A DNA stretch of 64,000 nt. Source: Acidobacteriota bacterium (GTDB lineage Bacteria; Acidobacteriota; Terriglobia; Acidiferrales; UBA7541). Numbering within the stretch: position 1 is the stretch's first letter; each line of letters starts with the position of its first letter. Below the pieces are notes generated by a model that had not been told where the DNA came from, ran no database searches, and was given only the letters and a program-made list of their open reading frames with translations. The position numbers and the translations under genes were made by a program. Shown piece after piece: positions 3,301-55,808 of this stretch. The stretch covers positions 26,532 to 90,531 of the forward strand of contig QHYI01000104.1 of the NCBI GenBank assembly GCA_003223245.1, written 5' to 3'.

Positions 3301-3636
3301 GCCACGCGCGGTACTGCCGCCGCGCTCGAAGCCTCGGGGATTCATGCGGAAGCCGTTTTTAAAGTGAATGAAGGCCGCCCCAACATTGTGGATTTGGTGA
3401 AAACCGGGAAAATCGATCTGATCATCAACACGCCGCTGGGCCGCGAATCTTTCTACGACGAGAAATCGATTCGGCGCGCCGCGATTCGCTACAATATACC
3501 GTGTATCACCACGCTGGCCGCGGCCAACGCAGCGGCGCGGGGCATCCACGCGCTCCACGAGCAGGGTATCGAGGTGGCGGCGCTACAGGATTTGCACCAA
3601 GGCGCCACTTCCAGCGCGCCCGCATCAGGAGATTGA
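382..3636 (+). CDS. carB: Carbamoyl-phosphate synthase large subunit
   Basis: The product is 1084 residues, the usual size, and makes carbamoyl phosphate from bicarbonate, ammonia and two ATP. Two homologous synthetase halves are visible. The first opens with [16 protein letters not shown] near residue 15 and has [13 protein letters not shown] near 90. The second opens with [15 protein letters not shown] near 557 and has [13 protein letters not shown] near 635. An MGS-like allosteric domain occupies about residues 935-1065. Ile in [12 protein letters not shown] and the preceding PCITT fit the usual end of that domain. It is intact, with no frameshift. dapA starts 3 bases after its stop, so they are probably co-transcribed. 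Confidence 0.98.
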
Positions 3637-3639
3637 GTC

Positions 3640-4536
3640 ATGGATTTTTCCGGAGTTTTTCCCGCCTTAGTCACACCGTTTGCCCGCGACGGCTCCGTTT
3701 CGCTGGCCGACCTAAAACACAACCTGCAACAATACAACCGCACCGGAGTGGCCGGTTATGTGGTGAACGGTTCGACGGGCGAGTCGGTACTACTTTCGAA
3801 GGCGGAAGCGGAGACGCTTCTGGTTGCCGTAAAGGAAACGGCTTCTCGGGGTAAGAAACTGATTGCCGGCACAGGAGCCGAGTCCACTGCGGAAACCATC
3901 GAGCGCACCAAACGCGCCGCCGAACTTGGTTACGATGCGGCACTGGTAAAGACGCCGTATTACTATAAACCGGCGTACAAGCCGGAGGTTTATTTTCAAC
4001 ATTACCGCCGCGTCGCGGATGTCTCTCCAATTCCCGTGCTGCTCTATTCGGTGCCGCAATTCACCGGGGTTGCGCTCGAGCCACCGGAAGTTGCCAAGCT
4101 GGCCGAACATCCCAACATTGTTGGAATCAAGGAAAGCTCAGGCAACGTGGTGCGCGTTGCAGAAATTATTGCGGGCGTTCGCTCCGATTTCCAGGTGCTT
4201 GTCGGCAACGCAGCCAGCGTGCTTCCCTCGCTGGCCGTTGGCGCGCGCGGAGCGATTCTGGCGCTGGCTTCCGCGCTGCCGGAGAAGTGTGTCGCGCTTT
4301 ACGAATTGGTTCGCCAGGGGCAGCAGGAAAAGGCGCGCGAACTGCACACCATGATTTTACGCGCGTCGAAGCTGGTCGTTTCCGAGCTCGGAATCTCCGG
4401 CGTGAAATATGTCATGGACCAGCGCGGTTACCGCGGCGGTGCGCCGCGACTCCCGCTCCTCCCGCTCCAGGATGAACAAAAGAAACGTCTTAACGCTTTC
4501 CTGGAGACCCTCGAACCCGCGGCCATGCGGGTCTGA
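3640..4536 (+). CDS. dapA: 4-hydroxy-tetrahydrodipicolinate synthase (DapA family)
   Basis: The 298-residue class I aldolase condenses pyruvate with aspartate semialdehyde in lysine and diaminopimelate synthesis. The Schiff-base lysine is K164 in GIKESSGN and the catalytic tyrosine is Y136 in LLYSVPQ. The substrate loop reads NGSTGES near residue 48, a small variation on the usual GTTGE. The gene starts 3 bases after carB, with AGGAG just before the ATG inside the carB end. Paralogs of this fold act on other keto acids (NanA, KdgD), so the exact substrate is inferred. DapA is the best fit by length and motifs. Confidence 0.88.
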   Translation: MDFSGVFPALVTPFARDGSVSLADLKHNLQQYNRTGVAGYVVNGSTGESVLLSKAEAETLLVAVKETASRGKKLIAGTGAESTAETIERTKRAAELGYDAALVKTPYYYKPAYKPEVYFQHYRRVADVSPIPVLLYSVPQFTGVALEPPEVAKLAEHPNIVGIKESSGNVVRVAEIIAGVRSDFQVLVGNAASVLPSLAVGARGAILALASALPEKCVALYELVRQGQQEKARELHTMILRASKLVVSELGISGVKYVMDQRGYRGGAPRLPLLPLQDEQKKRLNAFLETLEPAAMRV

Positions 4537-4681
4537 TTCGCGCTTCGCGACCGACTTGCTTCGAACGTATCCTGCTAGCGCTGAGGCGCAAAACGACTCC
4601 GGAAATTCCCGAGAGGTTTTCTCGCGGAACGCTTAACCATGGCCCTGCTAACCGATTCGGCCTAGTATCATCTAACCGCTC

Positions 4682-6295
4682 ATGGATTGTCGCGCGCTCG
4701 CGTTCCACCAACTCCCCCACCAGCCTGCGCTGTTCCTCGCCTATTTGCAAAAGTTTGAAAAAGTGAAGACCTTCTACGCCCTTCCCCCTACGATCGAAAC
4801 CGTGACAAGGTTATCGAAAAAGCTGGACTACCCGGAGGAACGCCGAGCGGAACTAGCGGCGATTCTCGGCCGCCAGAACGCGGCGCTCGGCGCAGGAGCG
4901 GAGACGAGTTCCAACTTAGAGCGGCTGGCGAATGGAGCGGTTGCGGTCGCTTCCGGGCAGCAGGTGGGATTGTTTGGCGGGCCAGCGTACGCCATTTACA
5001 AGGCGCTCACCGCGATTCAGATCGCGGAGGAGTTGACGCGCGAGGGAATTGACGCGGTACCGGTTTTTTGGATGGCCACGGAAGACCACGATTTGGAGGA
5101 AGTGCGCCACACGAGTTGGTTTGATTCAGGGAAACTGATTCGCTTCGCGTTGCCCGACGGAAATGAGGCCGGGCTACCGGTTGGAAGAGTCGCGCTCGGC
5201 GCAGAAGGGGACAGGCTTGCGCGCGAAGCCGCGGATTTGCTGGAAAAAGATGGCAGCGACCTGCTCGCGCAATACTTGAGCGCAAGTTACCAAGCGGAGG
5301 AAACCTACGGCAGCGCGTTTGGGAAATTGTTTGCGCGCTTGTTCGCGCCGCAGGGCTTGATCCTGATGGATCCGCTGGATGCGGGTCTGCACAAGGTCGC
5401 GGCGCCGCTGTATCAGCACGCTCTGGCGGAGCGCGATACTTTAAATGAAAAATTGCTGCAGCGCGGAAAAGAATTGGAGCGCGCGGGATTCGACGCCCAG
5501 GTCAAGGTGACCGCGAAGAGCACGTTGCTGTTTTACCTGGGCGATGGGGCGCGGCAGGTGATTTCGGCAAGCAATGAACAATTCCACGCCGGAGAGAAAA
5601 GCTGGGCCCGCGAAGAGCTGACGCACCTCACACACACGGAACCGGAAAATTTCAGCCCGAACGCGTTATTCCGGCCAGTGGTGCAAGATTATCTGCTGCC
5701 GACCGTAGCCTTTATTGGCGGGCCGGCAGAACTCTCCTACATTGCGCAATCGGAAGTGCTTTACGAGCATCTCCTCGGACGTATGCCGGTGATGCTGCCG
5801 CGCGCCGGATTTACGTTAGTGGACGCGAAGGCGAGCAAAGTGCTCGGGAAATATGGTTTGACGGTAGAAGACGTCTGGGCCGGCTCGCAGGAATTGCGTC
5901 GCAAGTTGGAAGCCGCGTCCGTCCCCAAATCATTGTCCAGAGATTTTGACCGTGACCAGAAGCAGATCGCCAAGATGGTCGAGCACCTTGGAAAGCAAAT
6001 CACGAGGCTGGACTCGACGTTGGCCGGTACGGTTGAAAGAACCAAGAAGGGAATTGAGTTTCATCTCGAGCAGTTGCGGCAAAAAGCGGGCCGCGCGCTG
6101 GACCAGAGGCTCGGCGTGATTGCCGCGCACGAGCAACACCTGGAATCGCTCCTGAATCCCCACAAAGGACTCCAAGAGAGGGAACTTTGCCTGCTGCCGT
6201 TTCTCGCGCGCTGGGGGGCCAGCGGTTTAGGCGAATTGCAGAAGCTGTGCACCGGCAAAAAACTCGGGCATCATTTCCTCGTTGAATTTCCTTAG
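4682..6295 (+). CDS. bshC: Putative bacillithiol synthase cysteine ligase BshC
   Basis: The 537-residue protein matches the BshC family, which is thought to attach cysteine to GlcN-malate in the last step of bacillithiol synthesis. Recognisable blocks are VASGQQVGLFGGPAYAIYKALTA near residue 80 (shown here only in part), PVFWMATEDHDLEEV near 128, and FIGGPAELSYIAQ near 345. A long helical coiled region follows at about 410-475. A 145-base gap separates it from dapA. bshA and bshB are not in the window. The family call is firm; the biochemical step is known only from genetics in Bacillus. Confidence 0.9.
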   Translation: MDCRALAFHQLPHQPALFLAYLQKFEKVKTFYALPPTIETVTRLSKKLDYPEERRAELAAILGRQNAALGAGAETSSNLERLANGAVAVASGQQVGLFGGPAYAIYKALTAIQIAEELTREGIDAVPVFWMATEDHDLEEVRHTSWFDSGKLIRFALPDGNEAGLPVGRVALGAEGDRLAREAADLLEKDGSDLLAQYLSASYQAEETYGSAFGKLFARLFAPQGLILMDPLDAGLHKVAAPLYQHALAERDTLNEKLLQRGKELERAGFDAQVKVTAKSTLLFYLGDGARQVISASNEQFHAGEKSWAREELTHLTHTEPENFSPNALFRPVVQDYLLPTVAFIGGPAELSYIAQSEVLYEHLLGRMPVMLPRAGFTLVDAKASKVLGKYGLTVEDVWAGSQELRRKLEAASVPKSLSRDFDRDQKQIAKMVEHLGKQITRLDSTLAGTVERTKKGIEFHLEQLRQKAGRALDQRLGVIAAHEQHLESLLNPHKGLQERELCLLPFLARWGASGLGELQKLCTGKKLGHHFLVEFP

Positions 6296-14096: not shown

Positions 14097-15860
14097 TCAG
14101 GCGAGGGGGCCGGGATGCTTGAGGTAGCGATCGACGATGGCGTCGGCGGCGCGGTAAACGAAGGCGAGAACCGTGGGAGTGGGATTGGCGGAAGCGTTTT
14201 GCGGAAACGTCGAGCCGCCCAGGATGAAGAGATTGGGGAGTTGCCAGTGCTGCAAATAGGGAGAGACCACCGAGTGGGCGGGTGAGTCACCCATGATCGT
14301 GCCGCCTTGGATATGCGTGGAGTTGTAATGTGTGGCGTCGTAAGAGTGTAAGCCTGGAAAAGGATTGATCTCACGCGCGCCCATGGCGCGGGCGACTTGG
14401 ACGGCGATTGGTGTGGCGAAGGCGGCCATTTTGCGTTCGTTGTCGCGCCAGTCAAGAGTGAGACGGAGAAGCGGGTCGCCGAGAGCGTCTTTGTAAACGG
14501 GGTCGAGGTCCATGAAATTCGTTTTATAGGCGAGATGCTCCCCAGCGAATCCAATGGTTGCCGTGCGGTCATAGCAGGAGATTGCAGCTTTCTTCCATTC
14601 TGATCCCCAAGTCGCTTTGATGGAATTTGGCAGCACCCCAAAGGCACCGATGGGCTGAAAGCCATAGCCACGGGCCCCGAAATAACCGCCACGCATGAAA
14701 TTCAGCCCGGAGCGATCGAGATCGTCGCGGTCGAAATCGCTGAAGAGGACTCCCGCCGAGCCCGATCCCATGAAGCGGTTAAGCGGCCGGTCGAAAAAAG
14801 CGGTGGCGGCTCCAACAGTGACCTGGTGCGTGAGATTGCTGCCAACAGTGCCGCGGCCTGTGGCAGGATCGTAGGGTTCACCAATGCCGGAGAGCAAAAG
14901 AAAGCGCGTGTTATTGAACGTCCAGGAAGCGAGAAAGACGAGAGAAGCGGGCTGGAAGATTTCATCGCCTGAGGAGGCCACGTAGCTCACGCCGCGAGCG
15001 GCAGCAGGTTTCGAGACGGCGTCAAAGAGGATGCGGCGGACCCAGGCTCCGGCGCGCAAAGTAACGTTGCTGCGCTTCTCAATGACCGGCAGTAGAAGAT
15101 TGGTGGGCTGCGCTTTTGCGCCGACCATGCAGCCGAAGCGGGCGCAGAAACCACAATAGGTGCAGCCGCCGCGAGAAATGCCATCCGGATTGGTGTACGT
15201 CTGGCTGATGTTCGCGGAGGGGGCGGGATAAGGATGGTAGCCGAGCGATTTTGCTGCGTCGCGAAATAGTACGGAGAAGTAGGGCATTTTTGTGGGCGGC
15301 GTGGGATACGCTTCGCTGCGCCAGCCTTCGAAGATGTTGCCGCCGTCCAGCAGCTTGCCGCGGATGTTGCCTGCCTGCCCCGAAGTCCCCAGCAGCTTGT
15401 CCACGCGAGTGTAGTAGGGCTCGAGTTCGTTGTAGGTGATGCCCCAATCGCGAACGGCATGGCTTTCAGGCAGAGCGTTGGCGCCGTACTTTTCCGAAGT
15501 TTTCGTGAGCAACTCAAAACAATCGGGAAGGAAGCGGGGAACCTGAGCGTTCCAATGCTCACCAGAGCCGCCGACGCCAGAACCGGGCAGAAAGGCTCCG
15601 TGCTGGCGAAGAGGAAGGGCGCGGCGCGCGGCATCGTGGCGAAGCGTGACGGTCTCTTTGGAGAGGTCCTGCATCATGCGAAAACGAATGGCGTAGTCCA
15701 GTTCATCCATGTCCGTGGAATAATCGGAGGCCCGGCGGGAAGGGCCGCGTTCGAGAACGACGATGTTGAGCGAGGTGCGCTGGGCAAGCTCTTTGGCCAT
15801 GAGCAGGCCAGCCCAGCCGCCGCCGACGATGACGGCGTCAACCGCAGGAAGCGTCTTCAC
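14097..15860 (-). CDS. GMC family FAD-dependent oxidoreductase, catalytic subunit
   Basis: The 587-residue flavoprotein opens with the dinucleotide fold VDAVIVGGGWAGLLMAKEL and ends with the GMC active-site pair HYNSTHIQGG (near 508) and FPQNASANPTPT. It would oxidise a sugar or alcohol. Near residues 229-244 there is a cysteine cluster, GGCTYCGFCARFGC. In FAD-glucose dehydrogenases a similar cysteine set binds a 3Fe-4S cluster for electron transfer, which is inferred here. The gene starts inside the end of its partner (ATGA overlap, 15857-15860), a two-subunit arrangement like gluconate or glucose dehydrogenase. No cytochrome c subunit gene is adjacent. Confidence 0.9.
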   Translation of the reverse strand: MKTLPAVDAVIVGGGWAGLLMAKELAQRTSLNIVVLERGPSRRASDYSTDMDELDYAIRFRMMQDLSKETVTLRHDAARRALPLRQHGAFLPGSGVGGSGEHWNAQVPRFLPDCFELLTKTSEKYGANALPESHAVRDWGITYNELEPYYTRVDKLLGTSGQAGNIRGKLLDGGNIFEGWRSEAYPTPPTKMPYFSVLFRDAAKSLGYHPYPAPSANISQTYTNPDGISRGGCTYCGFCARFGCMVGAKAQPTNLLLPVIEKRSNVTLRAGAWVRRILFDAVSKPAAARGVSYVASSGDEIFQPASLVFLASWTFNNTRFLLLSGIGEPYDPATGRGTVGSNLTHQVTVGAATAFFDRPLNRFMGSGSAGVLFSDFDRDDLDRSGLNFMRGGYFGARGYGFQPIGAFGVLPNSIKATWGSEWKKAAISCYDRTATIGFAGEHLAYKTNFMDLDPVYKDALGDPLLRLTLDWRDNERKMAAFATPIAVQVARAMGAREINPFPGLHSYDATHYNSTHIQGGTIMGDSPAHSVVSPYLQHWQLPNLFILGGSTFPQNASANPTPTVLAFVYRAADAIVDRYLKHPGPLA

Positions 15861-39283: not shown

Positions 39284-41761
39284 CTATTCAGACCGCAAAG
39301 CCTCCACCACGTCGACGCGCGCCGCGCGCGCCGCCGGCAACGCCGAGGCGATAACCGCCGCAGCCAGAAGCACAAAAACCGAGCCAGCCACCGGCAAGGC
39401 GCTGGGCATGCGCAGGTCAGGGAAATAGTGCGCTGCGAAGCGGGCAAGCCAGTATCCGGCAACGGCGCCGGTGGCTACACCAAGGACAGCCATCAGGGCT
39501 CCTTCGCGGATTACTCCAGCAAGCAGGTGCGCTGGCGGCGAGCCGAGAGCCAGGCGGATACCAAATTCGCGCGTGCGCGCACTGACCGAAAAGGCCAGGA
39601 CGCCGGCGACGCCCACCAGCGCAATCGCAAGCGCGACTCCTGCGAAGATGCCGAAGACCACGGTGTTCAGGCGGTCCGGGTGAAGAACTTCGGCGCGAAT
39701 GTCTTCAAGCGTGGCAGCCTTCTCGACAGGTTGCTCAGCCGACATGCCGCGAATCAACTGCGTGACCGGCGTGACCAGCGAATAGGGATTTGCGCTCGTG
39801 TGAATAAACAGACGGCCGTTAAACATGGGGCCATGGTTAAAGGTGCTGTAAACCGTGAGAGTGGGCTTGGGAACGACATTTTCATCGTCAATATCGCCGG
39901 CAACGCCAATAATACGCTCGTGCTCTGACTTAAACCCAGGAATGAATTGCAGCACGGGGTCGGTCCAATAAACATGGCGGCCGATGGCATCCTGGCCGGG
40001 AAACATGCGATTGGCGAGCGTCTCGCTCACTATGACGACGGGCTCTTTCGATTGCGTGTCGAGGTCGTTGAAATCACGGCCCCCGAGGATAGGAACGCCG
40101 AGCGCGGCAAAGAATCCGGGAGAGATCGTGCGGAAGTGTGCGCGCGGATCGTTTTCCGGACTATGGACATGGCCATCCGCCGAAAATTGCAGGCCCGGGC
40201 CGTCGAAGCCGCCATCCCGCCAAGGGGCAGCGACTCCGAAAGCCGTCTTCATCACTCCAGGCATTGCGTCAATCCGGCGGATCGTTTCCTTGTAGAAATC
40301 CACCACTTGCTGCGGCGTTTTTTGGTAGTTCATCACGGGAACGTTGATGGCCAGGACGTGGCGCGTGTCGAGGCCCGTCCGTGCCGTCTGCATGGCGATG
40401 AGCGTTTTGAGAAGCATGCTGGCGCCAGCGAGGAGCACGAACGAAGCGGCAATCTGGACCACGGCGAAGAGGCGGAGGCGCCGACTGGTGCTGCCCGTGA
40501 TGCGGACGCCGCCGCTCGCAAGCCCCGGAGCTTGCGAAACATTTGCGGATGGGAGACGGGGGACATAAGCAAGAAGAACGGCGGCGATGATCGCGAGAAC
40601 AGCGCCGACCCAGAGAACGCTTGAGTCCACTGTGAGATTCAGGGCGCGGACGGAAAACTCCGAGGCGTACCGAGCAAGGACCTCGAGCAGCGGACGCGCA
40701 ATGATCACGCCCAACCCCGCACCGGCAATGCACAGAACGAGGCTTTCGGCCAGCAGCGTGCGCCGCAAGGCCCTCGTGCCAGCGCCAAGAGCCGCGCGGA
40801 TCGCCAATTCGTTTTCGCGGCGAACCGTGCGGGCAAGGATGAGATTGGCGACGTTCGAGCAGGCGATGATGAACACGAGCCCGGAGGCGGCGAGAAGAAC
40901 GAGAAGTACGGTGCGCGCGTCGGAGGTAACCTGATCGCGGAGGAGCTTCGCGCTGATTCGGAAGTCCCCATTTTTGGGATAGTCCGCAGGATGATCTTTC
41001 ATCATTGCCGCGTGGACCGTGGCCAGTTCTGCGCGCGCCTGATCCAGAGTCGCGCCGGGAGCGAGTCGGCCAAACAGCTCGGTCATGCGATGGACCCGGC
41101 CCGTAACCATAGTGGCCGAGAGGTGATGCGGGCTGGTGACCAGATTGGCGATGATTTCAGTATCCTGAGGATAAGGGATAGAAGGTTCAAGGACGCCAAT
41201 GACGGTAGCGGAGCGTGGACCGAAGCCAGCCTCCAGGCGAACCGCTTTGCCGAGCACGTCTGGATCTTTCTTGAGAGCGGTCGACCAGAAGTGATACGTG
41301 AGAACGACGACGCCGGGAGCTTTGGGACCGTCGTCTTGAGGCCCGATGAGCCGGCCGAGGACCGGGTGAAGGCCTACGACTTCGAAATAGGTGCCGCCCA
41401 CGACGGCAGCTTGAATTTCTCGGGGCTCACCGAGGCCCACCATGCTCATGCCGATGGCCGAAAAATCACCAAATTCCGAGACGGAGTGGATGCTGGCTTT
41501 GAAGTCCTGGATTTCGGGAACGGAGAAATTGATTTCATCCATGCCGATCCCCTTGGCGCTCTGCTGAATGTAAATGAGGCGGTTTTCATCGGCGTTGACG
41601 AGCGGCTGAAGCAGGACGCCGCGTACCAGGCTGAAGATGGAGGCGTTGGCGCCGATGCCGAGCGCCAGAGTAGCGATGACGGTGAGCGCGAGGCCTGGGG
41701 AGCGCATCAGAGAGCGAAAAGCGAGCCGCAAATCTTGAACGAACAGCATCAGCGTATGCAC
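39284..41761 (-). CDS. ADOP-type ABC transporter permease (MacB/FtsX family)
   Basis: The 825-residue protein is an Acidobacterial Duplicated Orphan Permease. It carries two MacB-periplasmic and FtsX modules in one chain and has no ATPase gene beside it. The N terminus MLFVQDLRLAFRSLMRSPGL followed by ALTVIATLALGIGANASIF is the hallmark. The first periplasmic domain spans about 50-260, the first FtsX helices about 280-430, the second periplasmic domain about 460-690, and the last helices end near RVDVVEALRSE. It may export a peptide or act in envelope sensing; the substrate is unknown. The start is GTG 41761 or ATG 41749. Confidence 0.9.
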   Translation of the reverse strand: MHTLMLFVQDLRLAFRSLMRSPGLALTVIATLALGIGANASIFSLVRGVLLQPLVNADENRLIYIQQSAKGIGMDEINFSVPEIQDFKASIHSVSEFGDFSAIGMSMVGLGEPREIQAAVVGGTYFEVVGLHPVLGRLIGPQDDGPKAPGVVVLTYHFWSTALKKDPDVLGKAVRLEAGFGPRSATVIGVLEPSIPYPQDTEIIANLVTSPHHLSATMVTGRVHRMTELFGRLAPGATLDQARAELATVHAAMMKDHPADYPKNGDFRISAKLLRDQVTSDARTVLLVLLAASGLVFIIACSNVANLILARTVRRENELAIRAALGAGTRALRRTLLAESLVLCIAGAGLGVIIARPLLEVLARYASEFSVRALNLTVDSSVLWVGAVLAIIAAVLLAYVPRLPSANVSQAPGLASGGVRITGSTSRRLRLFAVVQIAASFVLLAGASMLLKTLIAMQTARTGLDTRHVLAINVPVMNYQKTPQQVVDFYKETIRRIDAMPGVMKTAFGVAAPWRDGGFDGPGLQFSADGHVHSPENDPRAHFRTISPGFFAALGVPILGGRDFNDLDTQSKEPVVIVSETLANRMFPGQDAIGRHVYWTDPVLQFIPGFKSEHERIIGVAGDIDDENVVPKPTLTVYSTFNHGPMFNGRLFIHTSANPYSLVTPVTQLIRGMSAEQPVEKAATLEDIRAEVLHPDRLNTVVFGIFAGVALAIALVGVAGVLAFSVSARTREFGIRLALGSPPAHLLAGVIREGALMAVLGVATGAVAGYWLARFAAHYFPDLRMPSALPVAGSVFVLLAAAVIASALPAARAARVDVVEALRSE

Positions 41762-47624: not shown

Positions 47625-48329
47625 GTGAAGGCCGCGGCATTTACCCCCACAGGAATCCGCTTCGCAAATATCGAAAAACGCTACGGAAACCTTTACGCTT
47701 TGCGGCGCGTGAGTTTGGAGATTCGCGCAGGTGAATGCGTGGCGTTTGCCGGACGGAATGGTTCGGGAAAGACGACGTTGCTGCGTATTGCGGCGCGTTT
47801 GGTGCGCGCGTCGGCAGGGAAAGTAGACTTTGTCGCCTCTGATAGACAGGAGACCGATTCGGCGGCGCCAGCGGGTTTCGTGGCGCACGCCACGATGGTT
47901 TATGACGAATTGACGGCCGAAGAGAACCTGCTGCTCTTTGCAAAGTTACAAGGAATCGCGGAACCCGGATCAAGGGCTGCCGCGTTATTGGAAGAAGTGG
48001 GGCTGTCGGAACGGCGGAAGTCCCTGGTGCGAACGTTTTCGCGGGGGATGCGGCAGCGCGTGGCCATCGCGCGAGCGCTGCTGAACGAACCGTCGGTGCT
48101 GCTGCTCGATGAACCGGCCACCGGGCTCGACCCCGACGGAATCACCTGGCTGGCGAATACGCTCGAGCGGATGCGGGATGCCGGCCGCACCATCCTGATG
48201 AGCTTGCACGGGGAGTCAGAGATTTCCGCGCTGGCGTCGCGCGCGGTTCGATTGGATGCAGGTTCGGTAGTTGCCGATACACGCACCGGCTCGGATATGC
48301 ACGGGATTCTCAGTTTTGCGGGCGCATGA
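47625..48329 (+). CDS. ccmA: Heme exporter ATP-binding protein CcmA
   Basis: The 234-residue ABC ATPase has Walker A GRNGSGKTTL near 43, the signature FSRGMRQRVAIARALL near 140, Walker B VLLLDEPATGLD near 163 and the switch His in LMSLHGESE near 193. It is followed by ccmB and ccmC and so is called CcmA, the ATPase that releases heme-loaded CcmE from the CcmABCD complex. The start is GTG 47625; the sequence just before it (GGGGTTGTGCG) offers a weak ribosome site. The downstream gap of 112 bases is A-rich. Confidence 0.9.
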   Translation: MKAAAFTPTGIRFANIEKRYGNLYALRRVSLEIRAGECVAFAGRNGSGKTTLLRIAARLVRASAGKVDFVASDRQETDSAAPAGFVAHATMVYDELTAEENLLLFAKLQGIAEPGSRAAALLEEVGLSERRKSLVRTFSRGMRQRVAIARALLNEPSVLLLDEPATGLDPDGITWLANTLERMRDAGRTILMSLHGESEISALASRAVRLDAGSVVADTRTGSDMHGILSFAGA

Positions 48330-48441: not shown

Positions 48442-49131
48442 GTGAGTGTCAAAACGATGGCACTGCTCGCGGACACCACCGTGTTGCTGGGGAAGGAACT
48501 TCGCACGGAGTTCCGTTCGCGGGAGCTGCTGACCACGACGGTCGTATTCATCCTGGTAGTAGTCGTGCTTTTCAGTTTCACGTTTGATCCCAGCGCCAGC
48601 GAGTCACGAAGGTTTGGCCCCGGACTTTTATGGCTTTCGTTTTTGTTTGCGGCTTCGCTGATGCTTCAGCCTTGTTTCTTGCGCGAGCAAAACAACGACA
48701 CGCTGAGCGCGCTGCGACTGTCGGTGCGGGATCCGTTTTCGATTTTTCTGGCGAAGCTCAGCGCCAACACGTTGTTTTTGCTTTTGACGGAAGTTTTGAT
48801 GCTGCCGATTTTTGCGGTTCTGTATAACGTGCATATCCTTGCGGTTTTCCCGCAACTGGTGCTGGTCTTGTTTTTGGGCAGCCTGGGCGTGGCGATTCCG
48901 GGCACGGCGTTTTCCGCGATTTCGGCGCAGGCGCGGATGCGCGAACTGATGCTGCCGCTGCTGCTGTTGCCGCTGCTGACGCCGGTTCTGATTGCCAGCA
49001 CCGAAGCGACGGGCGCCCTTCTTGACGTGAACCCGGCCTTGCGGGTCGACTGGCTGGGATTTTTGGCCGGCTTCGACGTAGTTTTTTTGACCGCACTATG
49101 GCTTTTCGGCGAATATCTGTTGGAGGAATGA
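48442..49131 (+). CDS. ccmB: Heme exporter membrane protein CcmB
   Basis: The 229-residue protein has six predicted membrane helices and matches CcmB: KELRTEFRSRELLTTTVVF at the N terminus, ASESRRFGPGLLWLSFLFA near 50, and QNNDTLSALRLSVRDPFSIFLAKL (in part) near 80. With CcmA it forms the ABC unit of cytochrome maturation. The start is GTG 48442 or ATG 48457. TGGAGGAATG closes the gene, with the stop at 49129-49131. ccmC follows after about 50 bases. Confidence 0.92.
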   Translation: MSVKTMALLADTTVLLGKELRTEFRSRELLTTTVVFILVVVVLFSFTFDPSASESRRFGPGLLWLSFLFAASLMLQPCFLREQNNDTLSALRLSVRDPFSIFLAKLSANTLFLLLTEVLMLPIFAVLYNVHILAVFPQLVLVLFLGSLGVAIPGTAFSAISAQARMRELMLPLLLLPLLTPVLIASTEATGALLDVNPALRVDWLGFLAGFDVVFLTALWLFGEYLLEE

Positions 49132-49165
49132 GATGAGGCGACCCCGCCAGCTGGAGACAAACCGT

Positions 49166-49174
49166 AAAGGAGGT
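49166..49174 (+). promoter_or_regulatory. Strong Shine-Dalgarno site of ccmC
   Basis: AAAGGAGGT is almost the full anti-Shine-Dalgarno match. It sits 8 bases before a GTA codon in the ccmC frame and lies inside a 17-codon frame that opens with ATG at 49133 and ends TAA at 49184, overlapping the GTA. Confidence 0.6.
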
Positions 49175-49182
49175 GCGCTACG

Positions 49183-49857
49183 GTAAAGAGCATAATCAGA
49201 TCGGTCATCGTCTTCCTTTTAATAGCCTTCACCGCCTATCTGGCGTTCTATTACGCTCCGCTCGAAAAGACCATGGGCGTGATCCAGAAGATATTCTACG
49301 TGCACGTTTCCTGCGCGTTTAGCGCCTTCGTGGCGTTTGGGACATGCTTCTACGCCAATCTTCGCTACGTGTTCACGCGCGAACCGCAATCAGACTGGCT
49401 GGGCGTGTCGGCGGCGGAAGTAGGGCTGGCATTTATTACCGTGGTACTGGTCACCGGACCGATTTGGGCGCATCCGGTGTGGGGAATCTGGTGGACTTGG
49501 GACGCCCGGCTGACGCTCACGTTTGTATTGGGCCTGCTCTATCTTTCCTATCTGCTGTTGCGGTCGATGGTTGAGGAGCCGGACAAGCGTGCGCTGTTTA
49601 GCGCGCTGTTCGGCATTTTTGCGTTTCTGGATGTGCCGCTAGTGTATTTCTCGATTCGTTGGTGGCGCACGCAGCATCCGCAACCGGTGATTCTGGGCGG
49701 GCCGGGTTCGGGACTGGAGCCGCGGATGCGTGTTTCTTATTTGCTGATGTGGGGCGCCCTCACAGGGCTGCTCATTCTGCTTTTAAGCGCGCGGTACCGG
49801 CTGGAAGCGCTGCGCGCCAGCGTGGACGAATTGCGAAGGGAGGCGGACGTTCGATGA
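49183..49857 (+). CDS. ccmC: Heme exporter protein CcmC (non-standard start)
   Basis: The protein of about 224 residues has six membrane helices and the WWD motif HPVWGIWWTWDARLTLTFVLG near 105 (in part), which identifies CcmC, the protein that loads heme on CcmE. Between an in-frame stop at 49165 and the first ATG at 49273 the frame codes a normal first helix, IIRSVIVFLLIAFTAYLAFYY in part, ahead of MGVIQKIFYVHV. No ATG, GTG or TTG lies there. A near-perfect Shine-Dalgarno AAAGGAGGT (49166-49174) is 8 bases before GTA 49183, so GTA or ACG 49180 is the likely start, or a mutation has hit a former GTG. Start at 49273 would lose the first helix. Confidence 0.88.
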   Translation, partial: VKSIIRSVIVFLLIAFTAYLAFYYAPLEKTMGVIQKIFYVHVSCAFSAFVAFGTCFYANLRYVFTREPQSDWLGVSAAEVGLAFITVVLVTGPIWAHPVWGIWWTWDARLTLTFVLGLLYLSYLLLRSMVEEPDKRALFSALFGIFAFLDVPLVYFSIRWWRTQHPQPVILGGPGSGLEPRMRVSYLLMWGALTGLLILLLSARYRLEALRASVDELRREADVR

Positions 49858-49997
49858 AAAACCTGGATAGCGTGCTTGCGGCGTATCTTGCGGGCTGGGC
49901 CATTTTCTTTGTTTATTACATCTCGGTGGCCCAGCGGATGAGTACGCTGCGAGAAGAGGTAGAGCGGCTGAAGGCGCTGTTGAGCAAGGGGAAATAG
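49854..49997 (+). CDS. ccmD: CcmD-like small membrane protein
   Basis: The 47-residue protein (MKNLDSVLAAYLAGWAIFF at its start) has one membrane helix and a charged helical C-terminal tail (MSTLREEVERLKALLSK). This is the CcmD shape that helps release heme-loaded CcmE. Its ATG overlaps the ccmC stop (ATGA). Short length makes the family match weak but the position is exactly that of ccmD. Confidence 0.8.
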   Translation: MKNLDSVLAAYLAGWAIFFVYYISVAQRMSTLREEVERLKALLSKGK

Positions 49998-54129: not shown

Positions 54130-54256
54130 AGAAGTAGAAACAAAATACCTGGGGAGCGCACCATGAAACTGTGATGTACCTCAACTCCGGGCGTGAACTC
54201 AACCCTAAAGTCACAAGGGAGCCGCTAAAGCGCGCCCCTCGAACTCCGCCCGGAGA

Positions 54257-54661
54257 TCAAAACTGCTCGTTGTCGTCTTGGCGGAAGCCGGGAGGGACCA
54301 GGGCGCCAGTCTGCGGGGAGCGGACGGCTTGGCGCGTGCCGGCTTTGGGGAAGACGATGTGCCAGAAGTCGGTGTTTGGCGAGGTAAAGCTGACCCCCAC
54401 GAAGCGCCGTTCCCGCTTCTCTCGCAGAGAGGTAACGTGGCAATCGACGGACTCGGCTGTCATCTCGTTGAAAAGACGGACGTTCTGGCCAGGGATGAGG
54501 GGCGTGTCCATAAGCAGAAGAGCCCCGTGGGCGCTCACGACATAGGTGGCGGCTTGCAGGTCAATCGTTTCGCCTTCAGGGAGACGACAGCGCACCTTCA
54601 CGGGAATCTGAAGAGGAAGGCGAACCGTGCGCCGACGCTCCGGGTAATGGGTTCTCTGCAT
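54257..54661 (-). CDS. PilZ-like domain protein
   Basis: The 134-residue protein fits the PilZ beta-barrel: RRRTVRLPLQIPVKVRC at the N terminus carries the RxxxR-type arginines, and the later strand has SAHGALLLMDTPLIPGQNVRL where PilZ has (D/N)xSxxG. Only part of the c-di-GMP motif is clear (SAHG), so binding is uncertain. The C-terminal part VGVSFTSPNTDFWHIVFP is typical of acidobacterial PilZ proteins. It is a single gene between two convergent or co-oriented units. An opposite-strand frame here is a shadow. Confidence 0.72.
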   Translation of the reverse strand: MQRTHYPERRRTVRLPLQIPVKVRCRLPEGETIDLQAATYVVSAHGALLLMDTPLIPGQNVRLFNEMTAESVDCHVTSLREKRERRFVGVSFTSPNTDFWHIVFPKAGTRQAVRSPQTGALVPPGFRQDDNEQF

Positions 54662-54791
54662 AGAAAGCCTTGGAAAGGACGGTCCCCAACTTCGCGACTA
54701 TGCTGCCACGAAATGTGACCGAAGACAAGGAAAATAATGATTTGGCGGCTGGTACTTACTTTGACCGAGGGGAATCCTTACATTTGGGGGC

Positions 54792-55808
54792 TTACTTGGA
54801 CGTTATTGCGCCCAGGGCGTCCAAGACGGCATTCGTGAACTGCTCGGTATTCGCCTTCCCGCCGACGTCCCGTGTTGTGTAGATGCCTTCCTGGTACGTT
54901 TTTAGCAGGGCGGCCTGAATCCTCTCCGCAGCAACATGTTCCCCGATGTGATCGAGCATCAAAAGGGCGCTCATCAGCAGGGCCGTGGGATTTGCAAGCC
55001 CCTTGCCGGCGATGTCCGGGGCGGTGCCATGGACGGCTTCAAACATGGCGCAATCATCGCCAATGTTGGCGCTGGGAACTACGCCCAAGCCGCCTACGAG
55101 GCCGGCGGCGAGGTCACTCATCACGTCGCCATAGAGATTGGGCAGCAAAAGCATGTCAAACTGCAACGGGTCCATCACCATTTGCATGCAGGCGTTGTCA
55201 ACGATTAATTCCTGGTACTGAATTTCCGGGAATTGCGCGGCCACGGTGCGAACAGAACGCAAAAACAGGCCGTCCGACATCTTCATGATATTGGCTTTGT
55301 GGATGGCGTGAATCTTCTTGCGCCCGTGGCGCCGAGCATAATCAAAAGCAAAGCGCGCAATGCGTGTGGAAGCTTTTTCCGTAATGATTTTCAGGCTTTC
55401 CACGACGCCGGGGACGACTTCGTGCTCAAGGCCGGAGTACAAATCCTCGGTGTTTTCGCGGACGATCGTCAGATCCACGCCTTCAAAGTGGGATTTCACG
55501 CCGGGGATGTTTTTCACCGGCCGCAGATTGGCGTAAAGATCCAGCGACTTGCGAAGCGCCACGTTGACGCTGGGCGCGCCTCCGGCAATAGCTGTTGCCA
55601 TGGGGCCTTTCAGGGCCACGCGGTTGCGGCGCACGGAACGGATGGCTTCCTGATTTACGCGCTGGTTGTGGTCGGACGGGCCGGCGGCTCGCCCGGCGAT
55701 TTCCTCCCATTCGATCTGCACGCCTGCGGCTTCCAGAATGCGGCGCGTGGCACGGGCCACTTCCGGGCCGATGCCTTCGCCGGGAATGAGCGTAACTTGA
55801 TGCTTCAT
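54792..55808 (-). CDS. NAD-type isocitrate/isopropylmalate dehydrogenase family enzyme
   Basis: The 338-residue beta-decarboxylating dehydrogenase shows [13 protein letters not shown], the substrate serine region [34 protein letters not shown], the Lys in [14 protein letters not shown] and the metal aspartates in [17 protein letters not shown]. The SVNVxLRK and ENTEDLYSG features favour an NAD-dependent isocitrate dehydrogenase (the mitochondrial IDH3-like branch) over LeuB. It would work in the TCA cycle. The start ATG 55808 has no strong ribosome site. It diverges from the IscA-type gene across a 160-base spacer. Confidence 0.85.

Follow-up and report, generated by a model that had tools for sequence, protein, structure and literature searches.

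The window, by which we mean the whole stretch of 64,000 nucleotides analysed here, corresponds to positions 26532-90531 of contig C13 of genome G000. This assembly, from an uncultured soil acidobacterium, consists of 237 contigs with a completeness estimate of 95.8%, and its closest named relatives are metagenome genomes of gp2 Acidobacteria. The region investigated is a cytochrome c maturation cluster containing a CcmF-like gene, ccmA, ccmB, ccmC and a short ORF at the ccmD position. On the plus strand, the ccmA-like gene for an ABC ATPase (47625..48329; PF00005, 105 bits) is followed by ccmB (48442..49131), which matched PF03379 with 107 bits and TIGR01190 with 65.9 bits, below the curated cut-off of 156.2. 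The next gene, ccmC (49180..49857), encodes a heme handling membrane protein. It matched PF01578 (Cytochrom_C_asm) with 87.2 bits, above the Pfam cut-off of 29.9, and TIGR01191 with 121.7 bits, short of the curated cut-off of 186, and is therefore named CcmC-type. The best solved-structure match of its product was PDB 7f02 chain C, Heme exporter protein C (E 6.6e-19), and the gene shares an operon with ccmA and ccmB, as is expected of CcmC. The ccmC stop overlaps in an ATGA with the start of a 47-aa ORF (49854..49997), which we take to be ccmD from its position only; no Pfam family was found in 49857-49997.

Past an in-frame TAA at 49165-49167 the ccmC frame reads AGG AGG TGC GCT ACG GTA AAG AGC ATA ATC, with the ACG at 49180..49182 and the GTA at 49183..49185. 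No ATG, GTG or TTG (xTG) occurs between this TAA and the ATG at 49273. The SD of ccmC, AAAGGAGGT (49166..49174, plus strand), is spaced 5 nt from the ACG and 8 nt from the GTA. It lies within a leader mini-ORF on the same strand, MRRPRQLETNRKGGALR (49133..49186), whose 17 sense codons run from ATG 49133 to a TAA at 49184-49186 overlapping GTA 49183. The leader has an SD of its own, GGAGGA at 49122..49127, within the 3' end of ccmB. A sequence-only reading of this DNA had reported that ccmC was without ATG, GTG or TTG before 49273 despite a near-perfect ribosome site, that this site lay 8 bases ahead of GTA 49183, and that a 17-codon frame from ATG 49133 ended in a TAA overlapping the GTA; direct reading of the letters confirmed all three. 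The same reading took the frame before 49273 to encode the first membrane helix, and codons 49183-49272 do encode a hydrophobic first helix (KD peak 2.33) that is conserved in relatives. From the codon use of ccmC itself, 30 codons free of xTG are expected with p ~0.05. The gap alone is weak evidence, and what is unusual is the combination of the SD, the coding signal and the start position in relatives. As in sigR, a strong SD stands at proper spacing, and the orthologous ccmC start position holds neither ATG, GTG nor TTG. RNA folding of the junction in four stretches gave nothing beyond shuffled sequences (z -0.1 to -1.1).

Another annotation would place the true start at ATG 49273, the first standard start codon in frame. 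We consider this barely credible, since it would delete the first helix that the relatives conserve. The Met at 49273 is moreover an ordinary family residue, nearly invariant in 11 aligned rows, and no strong SD was seen ahead of it.

The ccmC start was compared within a genus set of 36 genomes, the window's own included, of which 34 gave a DNA match. It was readable in 33 of the 36, again with the window; the contig of G010 is cut, and G016 and G023 gave no match. All 32 other readable genomes have an xTG start, at 49180 or within one codon of it, and a nonstandard ccmC start codon was found in 0/32; conservation of the kind seen for infC and sigR is not present. This outcome lowers any claim that ccmC has an established non-standard start comparable to that of sigR. 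In a wider comparison of loci, reaching down to ~44% identity, every printed row except that of the window had an xTG near the start. At the codons corresponding to 49180 and 49183 the window reads ACG-GTA, whereas G007 and G008 read GTG-TTG, G014 GTG-GTG, G006 TTG-GTG, and both G011 and G012 ATG-ACG. Thus xTG is found at offset 0 from 49180 in all six nearest relatives and, as GTG or TTG, at 49183 in four of the six. The alignment of the six proteins with the window CcmC was ungapped and supports ACG 49180 as the orthologous position. Rows of the protein alignment were cut at their own start codons and carry an initial M by construction, so that the DNA comparison constitutes the test of start position. 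From the xTG of the relatives at 49180 it follows that the lost start is the ACG, and that GTA is codon 2, a spare start in some relatives. Support for the branching order among these genomes (77/93 for the window with G006) is too weak to fix the ancestral codon.

These results bear on the options left by the sequence-only reading, namely a non-AUG start, a mutated GTG or a misread base. The non-xTG state of the junction held, but the orthologous start is ACG 49180 and not the GTA. A plain GTG in relatives at the GTA position, together with reads showing G, had been named as grounds for refutation; GTG is indeed found there in G006 and G014, with TTG in G007 and G008 and neither in G011 and G012. 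A metagenome consensus error, or a base from a minority strain, in a population with a standard start codon at 49180 or 49183, is an explanation that we regard as nearly as likely as our preferred reading. The relatives place the window one substitution away from a standard start at either codon, the start change is private to this assembly, and nothing else is damaged in the gene, the leader or the SD. That defects of some origin occur in this assembly is shown by an FG-GAP gene with a frame change. Against such an origin of the base, xTG is missing from two adjoining codons.

From 49273 onwards ccmC differed from the six relatives with pN 0.02-0.05 and pS 0.40-0.56, corresponding to a dN/dS of 0.04-0.06. 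Codons 49183-49272 gave higher values (pN 0.15-0.25, pS 0.64-0.985), and this N-terminal segment diverges more in the window than between most of the relatives, among which pS was 0.30-0.77 and pN 0.07-0.23. The additional divergence could reflect relaxed constraint. Together with the missing standard start it would speak for a young pseudogene, in which a real start-loss mutation has silenced or nearly silenced ccmC. We find this improbable, given the strong constraint on the rest of the gene, the open ccmA-, ccmB- and CcmF-like frames, and a PF01578 search that found no second full-length CcmC-type gene in the 95.8% complete genome, although a very recent loss would leave an identical picture. 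The CcmC protein is intact and constrained. The search returned three other matches. One is the window's CcmF-like gene, another looks like hemX to judge from its neighbours, identified by eye as hemA and hemE, and the third is a truncated fragment from contig C109. None is a full-length CcmC-type gene, and rescue of ccmC by a paralogue was not supported. The C109 fragment (L126) is a truncated CcmC-like sequence, 44% identical to ccmC, that ends shortly past the motif WGIWWTWD.

Leaders of 17 codons also occur in G007 and G014 at the same place as in the window; they enclose the SD of ccmC, and their stop overlaps the start codon of ccmC. The G014 leader has a further in-frame ATG 3 codons earlier. 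The distance from the leader ATG to the ccmC start column is 47 nt in all three, yet between the ATG and GGAGG just 9-12 of 31 bases are identical across the three pairs. G006, the neighbour of the window in the tree (77/93), is without a bridging leader. The leader also raises the possibility that translation from ATG 49133, which has a good SD and lies one frame off ccmC, shifts by -1 into ccmC, or that a base was lost there. We rate this as very improbable. In G007 and G014 the 17-codon leader is out of frame as well and ccmC has its own GTG start, GGAGG lies at an identical distance from the start column in G007, G014 and G008, and no slippery heptamer was seen by eye at the junction. A one-base indel at the junction is disfavoured by the same comparison.

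The ccmB-ccmC gap was compared between the window and 28 other genomes of the genus. It is 2-6 nt in 14 genomes, in which the ATG of ccmC lies approximately where the leader ATG lies in the window, and in 13 of these 14 the GGAGGA at the end of ccmB precedes ccmC itself. The other 15 genomes, including the window's, have spacers of 36-198 nt. We defined a bridging leader as a mini-ORF that opens with ATG, has at least 5 codons and ends in a stop overlapping the start of ccmC. Such leaders were present in 13 of the 15 long spacers, G006 being one of the two exceptions, against 5.9 expected by shuffling. In this comparison the rows are related by descent, and for three spacers the chance is necessarily 1.00, their ATG lying in the unshuffled part; the remainder gave 10/12 against ~2.9. 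This excess of bridging leaders in the genus is suggestive. Little excess was observed in other spacers of the fetched part of the genome (6/58 against 4.1 expected, with start codons picked by a rough score). Re-initiation has been described to drop with distance, at 38 nt by 80-90% for two E. coli gene pairs and completely for a third (PMC10666635, in the part available). Since re-initiation falls so steeply, a bridging leader would make sense in the longer spacers.

For nonstandard starts elsewhere in the genome, an SD census was made over 79 stretches holding 988 gene-like ORFs in 1,154,257 of 6,311,796 bases; the piece L128, which overlaps the window, was dropped, L129 was trimmed, and an SD weight of at least 6 was demanded. 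Thirteen ORFs had an SD well upstream of their first xTG. Among these ccmC ranked first both in coding score and in SD strength, and the other 12 had coding scores of at most 0.27. Four of the 12 were opened (L173, L132 and those at window positions 40931 and 58894). By eye, L173 and window 40931 resemble antisense shadow ORFs, and at window 58894 an ordinary ATG is present. When coding signal upstream of any xTG was ranked with no SD demanded, ccmC was first of 834 gene-like ORFs. We concluded that ccmC is an isolated case within the 1.15 Mb searched, where no other ORF pairs a strong SD with a high pre-xTG coding score. This counts weakly against an erroneous or minority-strain base. The argument from a single case is weak because 31 of the 834 ORFs exceeded a pre-xTG coding score of 0.3 without the SD demand, of which three besides ccmC were opened. 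One was a peroxiredoxin containing an in-frame TGA, another changed frame, and the third was a gene fragment.

The census likely misses infC, which has GGGGGA before its ATC and lies outside the stretches searched. In a separate survey infC was matched in 34 of the 36 genus genomes and 12 loci (L208-L219) were fetched. The presumed start was ATC in 11 of the 12, the window's genome included, mostly after GGGGGATTT; the exception, L209, comes from G032, represents a different copy and is without the ATC start. An in-frame xTG upstream of the ATC was absent in 6 of the 11 loci, among them that of the window's genome, and present in 5. Near-cognate starts are thus probably tolerated in the genus.

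Our preferred reading, which we hold tentatively and at slightly less than an even chance, is that translation of ccmC begins on a near-cognate codon in the former start position, helped by the strong SD and by stop-start coupling. The lineage's ccmC would have lost its ATG, GTG or TTG start. Ribosomes ending ccmB would restart at the leader ATG 49133, traverse the SD AAAGGAGGT and stop at the TAA 49184-49186 atop the ccmC start, where some of them would re-initiate ccmC with fMet-tRNA. The start codon would be ACG 49180 rather than GTA 49183, perhaps by a modest preference. By our own reasoning, ACG would pair with the anticodon of the initiator tRNA at two positions and GTA at one plus a wobble. 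ACG holds the orthologous position, and GTA overlaps the leader stop. The sequence, the start position of the relatives, the intact protein and the leader in other species were seen directly; we infer that the bases are correct, that initiation takes place at ACG or GTA, and that coupling is at work. Against a near-cognate start, no other genome read has a non-xTG ccmC start, unlike sigR, and the frame change and gene fragment elsewhere in the assembly indicate that errors or decay occur. A stronger version, in which a natural ACG or GTA start is served by a leader delivering terminating ribosomes to a near-perfect SD, so that the start codon becomes nearly dispensable, we consider unlikely. 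If it were true, the output of CcmC would be set by IF3 and by translation of the leader.

A near-cognate start of ccmC would be of a kind already known from infC and sigR. In Streptomyces, sigR has a proven GTC start behind the SD AGGAGGTG and is repressed by IF3; of 34 species, 32 have GTC and two have GTT as the start codon (PMC5472188, available part). ccmC is likewise an intact gene whose non-xTG codon follows a near-perfect SD, but the codon is conserved in sigR, whereas the ACG/GTA of ccmC is private. The same part of that source gives near-cognate infC starts, ATT in E. coli and ATC in Streptomyces (PMC5472188). infC resembles ccmC in having such a start in an otherwise normal gene, and in the genus of the window it presumably does so in 11 of 12 loci, but infC autoregulates via IF3 and ccmC is without such known logic.

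The leader, with a short first ORF, the second SD inside it and a stop overlapping the second start, has the arrangement of a bicistronic leader. In the engineered bicistronic design (BCD) a 17-aa leader carries an embedded SD2, GCAAAGGAGGTG (PMC5995908, available part). The first cistron ahead of ccmC is likewise of 17 aa, with the SD of the second gene embedded and the stop at the second start; the BCD is engineered, whereas the ccmC leader is natural. The BCD target gene has a standard start, unlike ccmC. Termination-reinitiation is also described for overlapping ATGA and GTGA pairs (PMC6728339 and PMC10666635, in part), where the stop of the upstream frame overlaps the next start as it does at ccmC, with the difference that at ccmC the overlap is between a 17-codon leader and a non-canonical start. 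Near-cognate starts are weak, an ATT start being quoted at ~0.3% of ATG (PMC10666635, same part). Loss of RRF has been reported to permit initiation at non-canonical codons past a stop (PMC2268962, in a passage citing others), and a frame-shifted cI gene, an engineered case, is said to begin at ACA in E. coli (PMC6397469, available part). No natural bacterial ACG start was found among the matches listed for non-canonical ACG/GUA starts and non-AUG reinitiation, which is not proof of absence, and the available part of PMC11497404 did not deal with ACG.

A natural ACG or GTA start of ccmC, if real, would extend the short list of non-standard starts characterized in bacteria. It would also suggest that the start-codon rule can be relaxed by stop-start coupling, a possibility that gene finders seldom take into account. 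The natural leader common to several species has the layout of the synthetic bicistronic design. Should the missing start turn out to be an error of the assembly, the observations on the leader and on the infC ATC would still stand as ordinary but useful facts.

Several ORFs opened during the searches are recorded here in their own right. L132 (5245-5335) contains a prolyl oligopeptidase-like frame (by eye) with AAGGAGG just 5' of an ATC, 26 codons before the first GTG; this ATC is a possible second near-cognate start, with a low coding score of 0.15. The FG-GAP repeat gene (by eye) in L205 (~3550-5230) changes frame in mid-gene, through an assembly indel or a real frameshift. An RND efflux pump-like fragment (by eye) without a start lies on the minus strand of L169 (16597-17995, reverse-complement count). 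In L175 (~14130-14795; contig C22 of G000, ~54130-54795) a BCP/AhpC-type peroxiredoxin frame (by eye) holds an in-frame TGA, at what we take to be the expected Cys of the ...PKANTSG-C... motif, making this TGA a candidate selenocysteine codon. A selB match above the cut-off was found on contig C180 of the same genome.
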